30,313 nucleotides of DNA from Halieaceae bacterium (GTDB lineage: Bacteria > Pseudomonadota > Gammaproteobacteria > Pseudomonadales > Halieaceae): contig WTHO01000141.1 in assembly GCA_011523115.1 (NCBI GenBank), positions 1-30,313 on the forward strand. Direction: 5' to 3'. The notes under the pieces were generated by a model. That model saw only the letters and a program-made list of their open reading frames with translations. It was not told the DNA's origin and ran no database searches. This document shows, one piece after another, positions 10,845 through 15,385 of the stretch; position 1 is the stretch's first letter, and every line of letters starts with the position of its first letter. A program made the position numbers and the translations under genes.

Positions 10845-11699
10845 CTACTCTAAATCGAATCGCTGTCGTAAAAATCGCGCAACACCATCTTCATCATGAT
10901 GGCCGATCACCTCGTCCGCCGCATCGAGAATGACAGGGTCTGCGTTGGCGGGTGCGTAGCACTCCGTGGCGCATTCGAACATGCTGAGATCATTGTCACC
11001 GTCTCCAAAGGCGATGACATGCTCCACATCCAGCTCTGACCGCAAATGATTGATTGCATTGCCTTTGCTGCCCAGGCTGTGGTGGATATCAACCCAGTGG
11101 AGGGCGGCGTTTTGGGCCGCGTGCTCGCCCATTTCTCGCTCATGAATCGCAACGCCAGAATAGGCAACAAGATGCTGCTCCTCCGCGATGCTTGCTCTCA
11201 CTTTGTCCACTGCCAGTGCACTCCCCAACGAGAAAACATTAATGACGCTGATTTCGTCGGGCATTTCAGTGAGAGGCATTAATGGGAGGTGCCGCTCCGC
11301 CTCAAACAGGTCGGCCAGCTTATGCTCGCTCTTGCTTTTAAGCGGGCCGTGATAGAGCACGTGCCGCTGCCCCGCCTGCAAGGAAAAAACGAAAGGGGTG
11401 AGGTCGTTGAGCGTGAAGGCTGCCAAAACATGCCACACCTCCTCGCGGGTCAGTAAATGATGGTGGCTATAGCGCTCTTCTGCGGGCGACCAAATAATCG
11501 CGCCGTTCTTGAGGATCATTGGCAAGGTGAAGTAGTGGTCCCTGAGGGGAGCGGCGGCTGCCTGAAGCGTCCGCCCCGTGGCCACGGTGTAGGGGATGCG
11601 CTTAGCTCTCATCAGGGCCAGCGTGTCCGCGGTGTAGCCGGATATTTTCGAGGTTTTATCCAGCAGGGTACCGTCGAGGTCGAAAACGACCAGCGTCAT
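10845..11699 (-). CDS. Cof-type HAD-IIB phosphatase
   Basis: 284 aa haloacid-dehalogenase-superfamily hydrolase. Motif I is VVFDLDGTLL, with nucleophile D7 and acid D9. Motif II is the Thr/Ser of VATGRT (39-44), motif III is the Lys in GSKGNAI (about K212), and motif IV is FGDGDNDLSMFE (231-242). A large cap domain (about 80-190) of Cof/YbiV type lies between motifs II and III. Members dephosphorylate sugar phosphates, phosphorylated cofactor intermediates or pyridoxal phosphate; substrate is unknown here. GGAG about 8 nt upstream supports the ATG at 11699. It begins 45 nt after the DUF3501 gene on the same strand with no terminator visible, so it may be cotranscribed with that module. Confidence 0.85.
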   Translation of the reverse strand: MTLVVFDLDGTLLDKTSKISGYTADTLALMRAKRIPYTVATGRTLQAAAAPLRDHYFTLPMILKNGAIIWSPAEERYSHHHLLTREEVWHVLAAFTLNDLTPFVFSLQAGQRHVLYHGPLKSKSEHKLADLFEAERHLPLMPLTEMPDEISVINVFSLGSALAVDKVRASIAEEQHLVAYSGVAIHEREMGEHAAQNAALHWVDIHHSLGSKGNAINHLRSELDVEHVIAFGDGDNDLSMFECATECYAPANADPVILDAADEVIGHHDEDGVARFLRQRFDLE

Positions 11700-11744: not shown

Positions 11745-12341
11745 TCAATGTTCGGTCACCACCAGGTCCGCCACGAGAGAGTCTCTGATTGCCGACGGCA
11801 CTTCGTACCGCTCCAGAGGGTAGCTAGGGTGATCGATTCCCGCATAAAGGGTTGCCCCATCTTTCAGCGCATTGATCTGTTCCGGCGTCACCTCGAAACG
11901 GAGAAAGTGCACCGATGCGGTTTTGTCCGCCGTGGTGCGATCGAGATCCTCGTCAGCAATCGGCACAATCCGGTCCATATCATCCACTTGTAACCACACT
12001 TGGTCCTCTATGCCGATCATCTCGCCCAAACGCACGGCGCGTTGTGCCGGGTCAGGAATTTCAATCATGAAGGTGGCTTTCCAGTTATGGCCATCTGGGA
12101 TCAGCGGGTTGTAGGCGCTCAGTTCCTCTTCAATCCCCTCAGCTTCAAATACTCGCTCAATGCGCAGCATTTCCTGTATCTGGTAGCGAATGGTCGTTGC
12201 GTCTTCAAAGTAAAGTCGCGCGTGTTCGCCGAGCGCCAGCTGGCGATTCTTTTTGTGGGCCATGACCTCAGCGCGAAAATCGGCGCGCCGGGTCGCATAC
12301 TCCTCGAGGCTCCACAGGTCGTCGCGTGTCAGGTGTGTCAT
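11745..12341 (-). CDS. DUF3501 family protein
   Basis: 198 aa from the ATG at 12341, chosen because GAGGA lies 7 nt upstream. An in-frame ATG at 12371 would add ten residues but has no ribosome-binding site. The protein matches the DUF3501 family: an N-terminal MTHLTRDDLWSLEEYATRR-like opening, a KKNRQLALGEHARLYFED segment, and a C-terminal HFLRFEVTPEQI region. It has no cysteines, signal peptide or membrane helix and is acidic. Function is not established. The family is typically found beside a rubrerythrin and a GlpC-like iron-sulfur protein, exactly the neighbours here, so it is probably a partner in that redox module. It lies 39 nt after the iron-sulfur gene. Confidence 0.85.
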   Translation of the reverse strand: MTHLTRDDLWSLEEYATRRADFRAEVMAHKKNRQLALGEHARLYFEDATTIRYQIQEMLRIERVFEAEGIEEELSAYNPLIPDGHNWKATFMIEIPDPAQRAVRLGEMIGIEDQVWLQVDDMDRIVPIADEDLDRTTADKTASVHFLRFEVTPEQINALKDGATLYAGIDHPSYPLERYEVPSAIRDSLVADLVVTEH

Positions 12342-12380
12342 CACAGGTTCCTCAATTTTGCGGATGTTCATTGTAGGGGA

Positions 12381-13703
12381 TTACAAGCCGTACGCTTCTC
12401 TGAGAAGCGTCATGGGGTGTTCTGCTTTGGAGACCTTTTCAGCGAGATGCGCGATGTGCTCCCCAGCCATGGGACAGTCGCTGATGAACCGGTCGGGCGC
12501 TTGCTCATCGACTTTACGCACGGTCGGCCGCGCTATTTTCACGGATTTGTCTCGAGTCTCTTTCTTCACTGCATAGGTGCCGTCGTGCCCGGAGCATCGC
12601 TCATACGCTGTCACGTCGCTGTCCGCGATCAGATTCAGCACGTCGCGGGTTTTGAGCCCAATGTTTTGCACGCGCTGATGACAGGCAACCTGATAGGCGA
12701 CGTTGCCAAGGGCCGATTGAAAGTCCGTGTTGAGCGCATCACCCTTATGCCGCGCCCACAGGTACTCAAAGGGGTCGTAGAAGGCTTTCTGTACTTTGAT
12801 GACGTCCGGGTCATCGGGGTACATCAGCGGCAATTCCTGTTTGTACATCAGCACACAGGAGGGGATGGGGGCAGTGAGGTCGTAGCCCTCGTCAACCAAT
12901 TTCGCCAATACCGGAATGTTGGCCTGCTTGAGCGCGTCGACGCTGTCGAGATCACCCAGCTCGAGCTTTGGCATGCCGCAGCACTTCTCCTTGGGCACGA
13001 TGTCAATGTGAATCCCGTTGTGTTGAAAAACCTTTACGAAATCCTCGCCGACATCGGGGCTGTTGTAGTTGCCGTAGCAGGTTGCGTAAAGCGCGACTTT
13101 ACCGGTGGTATTGCCCACCTTCTGAGGCTCCTGCGGGACCAATAGTGGCTTAACGCGCTTTCGCAGTGTCTTGCTGTGCAGCTTGGGGAGAGGTGCTTCG
13201 TGGTGGATGTCCATTCCCGCAGATAGCGCTTTTCGGAAAGCGCCCGTCTTGTTGAGCGCGTTCACGGTGATGTCCACCAAGGGAATGGAGGTTGTCGACA
13301 ACAAGCGGTCAGTGCTGGTCAACGTCCGGTCCCTCAGTGAGGCGCCCTCGGTTTTGAAACGCTGGGCTTTGGCGCGCAGCATCAGATGCGGGAAATCCAC
13401 ATTAAATTCATGTGGTGGCACATAGGGGCACTTTGTCAGGTAACACAGATCACAGAGGTAGCATTGTTCCGCCACCTTGCCGTAGTCGGCCGTGTCCACG
13501 CCGTCGACTTCCATAGTGTCTGATTCGTCAATCAGATCAAACAAAGTGGGGAAGGCATCGCACAGACTGACGCAACGCCTGCAGCCGTGACAAACGTCAA
13601 AAACCCGCTCTAATTCCTTGTTTAGGGATGACTTGTCCCAAAAATCATCGTTTTTCCAATCCAACGGGTGGCGTGTGGGTGCGTCGATGCTGCCTTCTCT
13701 CAT
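12381..13703 (-). CDS. GlpC/HdrD-like (Fe-S)-binding oxidoreductase subunit
   Basis: 440 aa. The N-terminal ferredoxin-like domain carries two cysteine clusters, C38/C41/C44/C48 (CHGCRRCVSLC) and C81/C84/C87/C92 (CYLCDLCYLTKCP), each suited to a [4Fe-4S] centre. The C-terminal half has two cysteine-rich (CCG-type) units: TCYGNY with EKCCGMP, and ACHQR with ERCSGHDG, as in GlpC, heterodisulfide reductase subunit D and LutA-like proteins. It has no membrane helix and no FAD/FMN domain, so it is an electron-transfer subunit needing a partner. It sits between rubrerythrin and DUF3501, and by inference shuttles electrons to rubrerythrin. The ATG lacks a clear ribosome-binding site. The gene follows two hairpins downstream of rubrerythrin. 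Confidence 0.87.
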   Translation of the reverse strand: MREGSIDAPTRHPLDWKNDDFWDKSSLNKELERVFDVCHGCRRCVSLCDAFPTLFDLIDESDTMEVDGVDTADYGKVAEQCYLCDLCYLTKCPYVPPHEFNVDFPHLMLRAKAQRFKTEGASLRDRTLTSTDRLLSTTSIPLVDITVNALNKTGAFRKALSAGMDIHHEAPLPKLHSKTLRKRVKPLLVPQEPQKVGNTTGKVALYATCYGNYNSPDVGEDFVKVFQHNGIHIDIVPKEKCCGMPKLELGDLDSVDALKQANIPVLAKLVDEGYDLTAPIPSCVLMYKQELPLMYPDDPDVIKVQKAFYDPFEYLWARHKGDALNTDFQSALGNVAYQVACHQRVQNIGLKTRDVLNLIADSDVTAYERCSGHDGTYAVKKETRDKSVKIARPTVRKVDEQAPDRFISDCPMAGEHIAHLAEKVSKAEHPMTLLREAYGL

Positions 13704-13751
13704 GGCAATAAAAACTCTTAATTCAAAAAAACGTCAAGACAGTCTTTTCAG

Positions 13752-13774
13752 TACGAGCGGGGGGCGGGCTCGTA
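13752..13774 (-). other. Second hairpin upstream of the iron-sulfur gene
   Basis: A 7-bp inverted repeat (TACGAGC 13752-13758, GCTCGTA 13768-13774) with a G-rich 9-nt loop lies between the rubrerythrin terminator and the iron-sulfur gene. On the minus strand it is not followed by a T-run, so it is not a clear terminator. It could protect or process the downstream mRNA. Function is unknown. Confidence 0.4.
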
Positions 13775-13790
13775 TTAAAAACTGATGGGT

Positions 13791-13824
13791 AGAAAAAGCG
13801 AGGGGAGCGAATACGCTCCCCTCG
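13791..13824 (-). terminator. Intrinsic terminator after rubrerythrin
   Basis: A perfect 11-bp inverted repeat (13799-13809 and 13814-13824, CGAGGGGAGCG paired with its complement) encloses an AATA loop. Read on the minus strand it is followed by C then TTTTT (13797-13793), the form of a rho-independent terminator. It starts 23 nt past the rubrerythrin stop. The iron-sulfur gene lies beyond it on the same strand, so it would reduce expression of the distal genes relative to rubrerythrin. Confidence 0.8.
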
Positions 13825-13847
13825 GTGCCTTCGAGCGATATGCTCAA

Positions 13848-14267
13848 TTAGTCTTCGAGATTATCCAGCGCCTTCTGGAAACGATTGGCGTGACTACGCT
13901 CAGCCTTGGCCAGTGTCTCGAACCAGTCGGCAATCTCGTCGAAACCTTCGTCGCGCGCGGTCTTGGCCATGCCAGGGTACATGTCGGTGTACTCATGGGT
14001 TTCGCCGGCGATAGAGGCTTCAAGATTCTTTTTCGTGTCGCCCATTGGCAGGCCCGTGGCGGGATCGCCCACAGCCTCGAGGTACTCGAGGTGACCATGC
14101 GCATGGCCTGTCTCACCTTCTGCAGTTGAGCGGAATACGGCGGCCACGTCGTTGTAGCCCTCAACGTCCGCCTTCGATGCGAAGTAAAGGTAACGTCGAT
14201 TTGCCTGCGACTCGCCCGCAAATGCGTCCTTCAAATTCTGCTCTGTAGCACTGCCTTTCAATTCCAT
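13848..14267 (-). CDS. Rubrerythrin lacking rubredoxin domain
   Basis: 139 aa from the ATG at 14267, which has AGGAG about 8 nt upstream; the frame is open further upstream but without coding character. It is a four-helix ferritin-like diiron protein. Likely iron ligands are E19 (AGES), E52 with H55 (GETGH), E89/E92 (GETHEY) and E123 with H126 (ERSH). Rubrerythrins reduce hydrogen peroxide to water in the cytoplasm. The C-terminal rubredoxin domain with CxxC pairs is absent and there is no cysteine, so electrons must come from a separate donor. It is first in the run with the iron-sulfur and DUF3501 genes, divergent from oxyR, and followed by an intrinsic terminator. Regulation by OxyR is inferred. 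Confidence 0.9.
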
Positions 14268-14340
14268 TTCACACTCCTGATATTTTCGAGTTGGGAAGAT
14301 GAGGTCGGCCCAGAAAAGGACCATTGATCTCTCACAGCCC

Positions 14341-14417
14341 AATATACCGAGTTTGCTGAACTTTGGCTTACTGAAAATATAAAAAAAAATGATCGAAAAA
14401 ACCGATTGAGGTAATCT
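14341..14417 (-). promoter_or_regulatory. Probable rubrerythrin promoter with possible OxyR site
   Basis: In the 218-nt gap between rubrerythrin and oxyR, the minus strand reads TATATT (14346-14341), a good -10 hexamer, about 70 nt before the rubrerythrin ATG. No good -35 is seen, as expected for an activator-dependent promoter. Upstream is an A/T-rich stretch (nine A at 14381-14389). At 14392-14417, half-sites ATCG, CGAT and ATCT are spaced exactly 7 nt apart, resembling the OxyR pattern ATAG-N7-CTAT-N7-ATAG with one or two mismatches each. The -10 is moderate and the OxyR site is weak evidence. Confidence 0.35.
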
Positions 14418-14485
14418 GCCGTCGCGCCTCCGTATCAGGCGCGCCAGTGGCGTCAACGCCTGACGTCGAACCGCAAGGAAAAGTC

Positions 14486-15385
14486 ATGCGCCAACCTACG
14501 CTCAAACAACTCCGCTATCTCTGCGCAGTGGCCGAGTATCAGCATTTTGGTCAGGCGGCCACTGCCTGTCATGTCAGCCAAAGCACCTTGAGTGCCGGTG
14601 TTTCGGAGTTGGAGGAGTCGCTCGGCGTCAGTTTGGTGGAGCGCAATAACCGCAGAGTGTTCCTGACATCGCTTGGAGAGGAAGTGGTCGAGCGTGCCCG
14701 GGATTTGCTGGTCAGTGTTGAGGATATGGTCTCGCTCTGCGCCGGCGCCGGTGTGCCTTTTCAGGGTCGTATGCGGATGGGCGTCATTCCCACTGTCGCG
14801 CCCTACCTATTGCCGGGTTTGCTCGGTCAGATCAGGGCGCGTTATCCCGATTTCAAACTGTTTATCCGTGAGGATCTCAGTCAGCCGCTGGTGGACAGCC
14901 TGCTGAGTGGCGAGTTGGACGTTTTGCTTCTCGCGCTGCCTTTCCCTGCCGAACAGGTGGAGGTCATGACACTGTTTGAAGATGAGTTCATGCTGGCCTG
15001 CCCAACAGGCCACCCACTCGCGGCGCGTGCCAGTTTGAGAAGCGCCGATCTCAGAGGCGAATCCCTGCTGCTTCTCGAGGAGGGGCACTGTCTCAGGGAC
15101 CACGCGCTTGAGGCCTGCAAGCTTCGGGACTCTCAAGTTACCGTCCCTTATCAGGCAACCAGTTTGGCCACTATCGTGCAGATGGTGGCCAATGACATTG
15201 GCGTCACGCTGCTACCCGGCATGGCCGTCAGTGCTGGCATCGTCGGTAACGCGCCGCTGACAGTCAGGTCATTTGAACAACCTAATGTCACCCGAAAAAT
15301 CGGGCTCATGTGGCGCAAAAAGACGCCGCGCAGGGTCGAGTTTCGGCAATTGGGCGAGCTGATTGCGGGCCTTATCGGGGCTTAA
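14486..15385 (+). CDS. oxyR: OxyR-type hydrogen peroxide sensor and regulator
   Basis: 299 aa LysR-family regulator from the ATG at 14486 (AAGGAA upstream). The N-terminal winged helix (1-60) contains MRQPTLKQLRYLCAVAEYQH and HVSQSTLSAGVSELE. The C-terminal sensor domain carries the two OxyR redox cysteines, C202 and C211 in GHCLRDHALEAC, with the same 8-residue spacing as C199/C208 of Escherichia coli OxyR. PTVAPYLLP and the TSLATIVQMV segment also match. Oxidation to a disulfide by peroxide activates transcription of defence genes. It is divergent from the rubrerythrin module, its probable local target, and converges with ygiQ 9 nt away. Confidence 0.93.
   Translation: MRQPTLKQLRYLCAVAEYQHFGQAATACHVSQSTLSAGVSELEESLGVSLVERNNRRVFLTSLGEEVVERARDLLVSVEDMVSLCAGAGVPFQGRMRMGVIPTVAPYLLPGLLGQIRARYPDFKLFIREDLSQPLVDSLLSGELDVLLLALPFPAEQVEVMTLFEDEFMLACPTGHPLAARASLRSADLRGESLLLLEEGHCLRDHALEACKLRDSQVTVPYQATSLATIVQMVANDIGVTLLPGMAVSAGIVGNAPLTVRSFEQPNVTRKIGLMWRKKTPRRVEFRQLGELIAGLIGA

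Follow-up and report, generated by a model that had tools for sequence, protein, structure and literature searches.

Within the stretch of DNA analysed here (the window: 30,313 nucleotides, contig WTHO01000141.1 of the Halieaceae bacterium assembly GCA_011523115.1), three genes of the minus strand form what is probably a unit for hydrogen peroxide defence, back to back with a regulator gene of the oxyR type. The first, rbr (13848-14267, with the ATG at 14267 as best start), codes for an aerobic-type rubrerythrin (RBR) of 139 residues (PF02915, 104.5 bits) that has zero cysteines, two ExxH motifs and no rubredoxin domain, and that can be aligned almost end to end with one-domain rubrerythrins of known structure, for example 4di0 (E 3.6e-77). 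It is followed, after a gap of 144 bp that contains a terminator-like hairpin, by the gene of RFO (12381-13703), a GlpC-like iron-sulphur (Fe-S) protein whose CCG domain matches PF02754 at 50.2 bits, and then by the gene of a DUF3501 protein (11745-12371; PF12007, 239.9 bits), 208 residues long and devoid of cysteine, whose closest relative among the named genomes listed comes from a Luminiphilus metagenome-assembled genome (71% identity). On the plus strand oxyR (14486-15385), for which the ATG at 14486 is preferred over the GTG at 14447, encodes 299 residues with the helix-turn-helix and substrate domains of LysR-type proteins. A cysteine-free rubrerythrin lacking the rubredoxin domain, standing in one run with DUF3501 and a COG0247-type Fe-S protein in the gene order of their relatives, places the window in the aerobic-type RBR/RFO/DUF3501 module. 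The original prediction had named these three genes and a divergent oxyR with both its redox cysteines, and the family matches bear it out. It had also spoken of a single minus-strand run and of CCG motifs in the Fe-S protein: the order holds, but because a 144-bp gap and a terminator-like hairpin follow rbr, the run is unlikely to be transcribed as a single, evenly expressed unit, and RFO, while it does have two ferredoxin-type sets of cysteines, carries only one true CCG motif, its second CCG-type domain reading CSG.

The association of the three genes is not due to chance, as the order rbr-rfo-DUF3501 is kept in 132 of 141 neighbourhoods. DUF3501 is present in 63 of 100 genomes of the family (Halieaceae) and in 119 of 274 genomes of the class, the window's genome being included in both counts; the 141 neighbourhoods comprise the window, 60 of the 62 other family genomes (G072 and G090 were excluded for split DUF3501 hits) and 80 of the 118 other class genomes, picked by hand with the better matches first. 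In seven of the nine exceptions a contig end lies 138-1615 bp upstream of DUF3501 and there is no rbr in the remaining stretch; of the other two, one contains rbr and DUF3501 but no rfo that scored, and in the other rfo stands ahead of rbr. That the trio recurs, as had been predicted, has in fact been in print since 2016, when Cardenas et al. described the aerobic-type module (PMC5114695; this and the other published accounts are used here through excerpts), with all three genes in 185 of 4461 genomes and RBR with DUF3501 only in 25 organisms. Other excerpts restate the association (PMC7465337), place the module in Acidihalobacter (PMC7760498), present it as a mitochondrial system in some protists (PMC7050145) and, in 2020, note an OxyR-linked DUF3501/RBR operon in Sideroxydans (PMC7852563). 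The trio itself is already known, then, and the oxyR-linked case already noted. Like the window, the module of Cardenas et al. has the three genes side by side and no rubredoxin domain; the window differs by its divergent oxyR and by an operator-like dyad common to katG, regulation being a matter not met in the excerpts of PMC5114695. In Sideroxydans OxyR adjoins the same genes as here, but the excerpts of PMC7852563 concern one organism, whereas in the present work the linkage is counted, two arrangements are distinguished and an operator is proposed. No published description was found, in the literature searched, of the variant in which the module is under OxyR control through a changed operator.

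RFO has exactly 15 cysteines, none of which varies in an alignment with 38 relatives of 44-74% identity. Eight make up two ferredoxin-type fours, and the first and second CCG domains have four and three respectively; set against GlpC, LutA, EtfD and HdrB, RFO is distinguished by a second CCG domain that keeps three cysteines only. In its model (predicted local distance difference test score, pLDDT, 90.9), 368 residues align with EtfD and the C-terminal half with LutA and HdrB. One might take RFO, which is 27% identical to E. coli GlpC and reaches 210 bits with the GlpC profile, for the GlpC-type subunit of a metabolic dehydrogenase whose linkage to rbr is incidental. Yet it misses the GlpC equivalog cut-offs (210.3 against 278 bits and 134.4 against 279.9 bits), it has CSG and CPMA instead of CCG and CETC, lacking two second-domain cysteines of GlpC (S371, A413), and its neighbours in the window are rubrerythrin, DUF3501, a HAD hydrolase, OxyR and YgiQ, the trio being linked in nearly all the loci compared; this makes a dehydrogenase subunit hardly credible. 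RFO is a plausible electron donor to rubrerythrin, to judge from its sequence and its modelled fold and, because the rubrerythrin has no rubredoxin domain, re-reduction by this Fe-S wire related to GlpC, LutA and EtfD would be the most likely route. EtfD and GlpC pass electrons to quinones, and it is for this sole reason that quinol may be proposed as the donor to RFO. As for DUF3501, its model (pLDDT 90.6) has one close structural match, the uncharacterised protein 3fjv, and the protein has neither cysteine nor recognisable cofactor site; a docking or assembly partner would be our best guess.

We call the divergent regulator OxyR on account of its cysteines and its presumed operator, and not as an equivalog of the E. 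coli protein, since its score stays under the NCBIfam OxyR equivalog cut-off (233.4 against 329 bits), even though this family comes top of 51. The redox cysteines, in CLRDHALEAC, fall opposite those of the E. coli protein, with which overall identity is 38%. No other close OxyR was found in the window's genome (79% complete), where the next best matches reach 24 and 23% identity. Of the 61 family loci, 32 have an OxyR of more than 250 bits divergent from rbr, as against none of the 80 others; OxyR proteins of lower score occur beside the module in a further seven of the 141 loci, and a second collection has OxyR near it in 15 of 80 loci, 13 of them new. The arrangement is of two kinds, divergent or in the same direction. 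An oxyR next to the module is a lineage variant, not a general property, although weaker OxyR proteins are linked to it in some loci outside the family.

Between oxyR and rbr lies the dyad ATCGAAAAAACCGAT (14392-14406, no strand), a candidate OxyR operator of the ATCG-N7-CGAT type with an A/T-rich core. Of the 32 loci of the family with a linked oxyR, 26 have such a dyad in the 300 bp ahead of rbr (shuffles: mean 0.12, maximum 1), while ATAG-N7-CTAT is found there in 0 of the 32 and the next commonest 4-bp dyad, with gaps of 3-15, in seven. In the window's genome the same type of dyad also precedes katG (catalase-peroxidase, TIGR00198, 833 bits), as it does in 22 of 30 katG loci of the genus (shuffles: mean 0.22, maximum 2), six more having a dyad with one mismatch and two having neither; these 30 are the loci returned out of 51 genomes with a match. 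The seven core positions hold on average 6.1 and 6.2 A+T at rbr and katG, against 3.4 at 19 sites elsewhere in these loci. A -10-like hexamer stands 52-54 bp off the dyad centre in 12 of the 26 dyad loci, among them the window (TATATT, 14341-14346, minus strand, 53 bp), which would put that centre at about -65, the usual position of a LysR-type site. Excerpts on the oxyR-oxyS region of E. coli report OxyR inverted repeats of the form ATAG-n7-CTAT (PMC5002191); the 4-7-4 geometry is the same at oxyR-rbr and katG, and the half-site differs from ATAG. A search of the literature for the literal phrase ATCG-N7-CGAT with OxyR returned no paper, which is weak evidence of newness.

The protein varies along with the type of dyad beside it. 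All 28 OxyR proteins beside ATCG dyads have [ST]QSTLSA..xELE in the recognition-helix region, while all ten beside ATAG dyads have ..[KR]KLE there, as has E. coli OxyR, of the ATAG type, which reads SQPTLSGQIRKLE. Thirteen more OxyR-linked loci carry neither dyad; their proteins show the first helix type in eight cases, the second in three and no match to the pattern in two. Peroxide control of rbr by the adjacent OxyR, which the original prediction had proposed, is in this way well supported at the level of sequence, by a dyad common to katG and a helix that tracks the operator, with the qualification that the oxyR neighbour belongs to a lineage. The katG of the window's genome (L206:3-1814, minus strand) begins with an N-terminal stretch resembling a secretion signal, so that the catalase-peroxidase may be periplasmic and the rubrerythrin cytoplasmic.

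The gap that separates rbr from rfo has its own signature. In the window it holds a hairpin followed by a T-run (13799-13824, minus strand; 11 pairs, 9 of them G-C), a candidate partial terminator. The hairpin scan of the window is no evidence by itself, as it found four sites against 4.7 in shuffles; the comparison across loci is what matters. A terminator-like hairpin is present in 45 of 128 rbr-rfo gaps, where shuffling leads one to expect about 1.6, against 6 of 150 other same-strand gaps of these loci taken as controls, and the fold has z < -2 in 87 of the 128 against 26 of the 150 (the set being 128 of 133 gaps, 40-240 bp long and free of N, and the controls 150 sampled from 214). Partial termination leaving rubrerythrin in excess would be the simplest reading, and stabilisation of the RNA would also fit.

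We may then propose, as an explanation of the whole locus that we consider likely, that it encodes a peroxide-inducible hydroperoxide reductase run by OxyR, in which the rubrerythrin is fed by RFO. Hydrogen peroxide would oxidise OxyR, with formation of a disulfide between the two conserved cysteines as in E. coli; OxyR on the dyad at 14392-14406, centred some 65 bp upstream of the presumed transcription start, would activate rbr as it would katG and, the dyad being 79 bp before its own start codon, could repress its own gene. A large share of transcripts would stop at the hairpin after rbr, so that rubrerythrin would exceed RFO and DUF3501. The rubrerythrin would reduce hydrogen peroxide at its di-iron centre, a reaction reported for relatives, and be reduced again by RFO, possibly fed from the quinol pool, with DUF3501 most likely assisting in docking or assembly. 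Claims that can be tested follow: which sensor, which base pairs, what ratio of the module's parts. DUF3501, a family without known role, would at the same time be tied to peroxide defence by a rubrerythrin with no rubredoxin domain of its own.

A number of observations weigh against this proposal and must be set beside it. An OxyR-type dyad is found in only seven of the 26 family loci without linked oxyR (three of which hold less than 1.2 kb before rbr, so that an oxyR could be cut off); the katG upstreams show no -10 at a fixed distance; most of the 28 proteins that have the changed helix are closely related to one another and hence far from 28 independent events; of 52 OxyR-adjacent loci, 13 are without perfect dyad and two (L195 and L304) have no CX8C match in the presumed OxyR frame; and 83 of the 128 rbr-rfo gaps failed the terminator-like test. 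Two published results count on both sides. In favour of the proposal is the induction by hydrogen peroxide of Burkholderia bpss1837 (hypothetical), bpss1838 (ferredoxin) and bpss1839 (rubrerythrin), which by their order and names would be DUF3501, RFO and RBR: they rose by 3.37, 3.31 and 3.36 after 10 min in 100 uM H2O2 (values read as log-transformed fold change, PMC4175613 Table 1), but this induction is listed as sigma-E-dependent, and the passages of that source on the three genes name neither OxyR nor Irr (PMC4175613). In favour, too, is ferriperoxin of Hydrogenobacter thermophilus, a one-domain rubrerythrin like that of the window, which reduces H2O2 and organic hydroperoxides and whose disruptant is unable to grow aerobically, but it was driven in vitro by NADPH and FNR (PMC3317640). 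In Hydrogenobacter the RFO gene stands apart from the other two, which are adjacent to it in the window (PMC5114695).

The work of ferriperoxin with NADPH and FNR invites another understanding of the trio, where the rubrerythrin would be re-reduced by a general ferredoxin/FNR pathway while RFO and DUF3501 build or repair its di-iron site; the 25 organisms with RBR and DUF3501 only point the same way (PMC5114695). We think this unlikely, if not negligibly so: RFO has the cysteines of two ferredoxin-type clusters and seven more, all invariant, which fits electron transfer better than assembly, and rfo comes after rbr in 132 of the 141 loci. Electron supply to the rubrerythrin through RFO is the likelier reading.

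Outside the family the rbr promoter tells a different story. An Irr-box-like palindrome (consensus atTTAGAcT.agTCTAAat, at a median of 64 bp before the start codon) is present in 60 of the 76 non-family loci; the alphaproteobacterial Irr box is TTTAGAAnnnTTCTAAA. A second set of 54 rbr upstreams has the palindrome in 26, ATAG-N7-CTAT in 13 and ATCG-N7-CGAT in two (upstreams of at least 100 bp were needed, which left 134 in the first set and, after removal of ten repeats, 54 in the second). The exact core TTTAGA-N5-TCTAAA occurs in nine of 12 genomes scanned, at 12 sites, eight of them before rbr in seven genomes; the other four precede two diheme peroxidase/MauG-type genes, an oxyR and a dihydroorotate dehydrogenase gene. 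The last of these boxes (L256:1501-1517) lies directly before its gene, in a genome without DUF3501 match, and that beside oxyR (L257:1501-1517) has on its other side a divergent gene scoring as an arsenic efflux protein, a position which hints at a link between the OxyR and Irr sensors.

The presumed reader of the box is a second Fur-family protein of one kind, Irr-like, found in ten of ten class genomes with the box before rbr and in 0 of six family genomes tested; nine of the ten paralogues have an HHH stretch and none has CxxC, and one that was scanned reached 135 bits with IrrA, under the cut-off of 150. Over the 76 loci the table of box against Irr-like gene reads 55, 5, 3, 13 (p 2.5e-8), 55 of the 60 box loci having the gene, and eight of the ten OxyR-type dyads in these same loci belong to genomes without it. 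For DUF3501 against Irr in the class genomes, listed by hand and without that of the window, the cells are 86, 32, 24 and 131. The Irr-like gene lies near the module in ten loci and, in a broader sample of the phylum, is found upstream and in the same direction in five of 16. In none of those five does the box immediately precede rbr, and one carries an ATAG dyad; three other loci of the sample do have the box. Should irr and rbr be cotranscribed in those five, the promoter is to be expected ahead of irr. Two of the six family genomes have another Fur paralogue, weak and bearing CxxC pairs (G012:C22:150003-150377 and G067:C1:307857-308231, two of the three genus genomes tested), which is probably Zur-like.

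These boxes, and the paralogue that goes with them, raise the question whether the module of the window, too, could be under iron or heme control by an Irr-like regulator, oxyR being a mere neighbour. There is a precedent in Rhodobacter sphaeroides, where Irr binds the promoters of mbfA, a rubrerythrin-like gene, and ccpA, much the same two kinds of gene as those found here beside the boxes (PMC3413700, in excerpts). But the short box TAGA-N5-TCTA is absent from all 32 loci of the family that have a linked oxyR, the window included, the window's genome (79% complete) has no Irr match at E 1e-20, and the family genomes tested are precisely those without the paralogue; neither mark of the Irr-controlled variety, a box before rbr and an irr gene, was thus found for the window, and we give this view of it a small chance. 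A single short box among the 26 family loci without linked oxyR is a point on its side.

Seen over all loci, the family form appears, from its promoters, to be switched on by OxyR, and most of the sampled relatives to use another sensor. Among 188 rbr upstreams, the 52 OxyR-adjacent loci have 39 OxyR-type dyads and 0 Irr boxes, the ten Irr-adjacent loci seven boxes and two dyads, and in the remaining 126 loci boxes number 80 and dyads 17, the two occurring together in three loci (the OxyR- and Irr-adjacent sets were compiled by hand). In the non-family loci alone, the dyad is in 13 of 19 OxyR-adjacent against 12 of 111 non-adjacent loci (p 2.9e-7, kinship ignored), and the raw tests of site against sensor give p of about 1e-15, related loci being counted repeatedly. 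On the RFO tree of 186 rows, 44 of them with neither site, OxyR adjacency changes at least 16 times, and box and dyad exclude each other in ancestry-corrected pairs by 5.7 to 1.0 (p 0.125). Replacement of OxyR and Irr-like Fur proteins, which we take to be unrelated peroxide/heme sensors, by one another at rbr is suggestive only: once ancestry is corrected for, OxyR adjacency goes with the dyad by 7.0 pairs to 1.1 (median p 0.07) and with the Irr box by 0 to 5.3 (median p 0.06). With p of 0.06-0.125 in these pair tests, the exchange is likely but not proven.

A broader view, which we put forward as a tentative and somewhat doubtful one, would have RBR, RFO and DUF3501 as a cytoplasmic hydroperoxide reductase fed by the respiratory chain through quinol, its control swapped repeatedly between Irr-like Fur proteins and OxyR, and the Halieaceae-type OxyR and its operator changed together from ATAG-N7-CTAT to ATCG-N7-CGAT. 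If true, this would be an exchange of regulators with a matched change in protein and DNA site.

In the window a HAD-IIB hydrolase gene (10845-11699, minus strand) follows close behind DUF3501, and a related gene is found in 15 of the 141 neighbourhoods (window included), always after DUF3501 and in the same direction. Outside the family (L122-L201) the module often sits between dxs/ispA-type and topoisomerase IV-type genes: over 76 loci, the neighbours include the polyprenyl synthetase cluster in 32, a gyrase-B-type subunit in 30, dxs in 24 and a topoisomerase A-type subunit in 19, one representative of each gene type having been checked.

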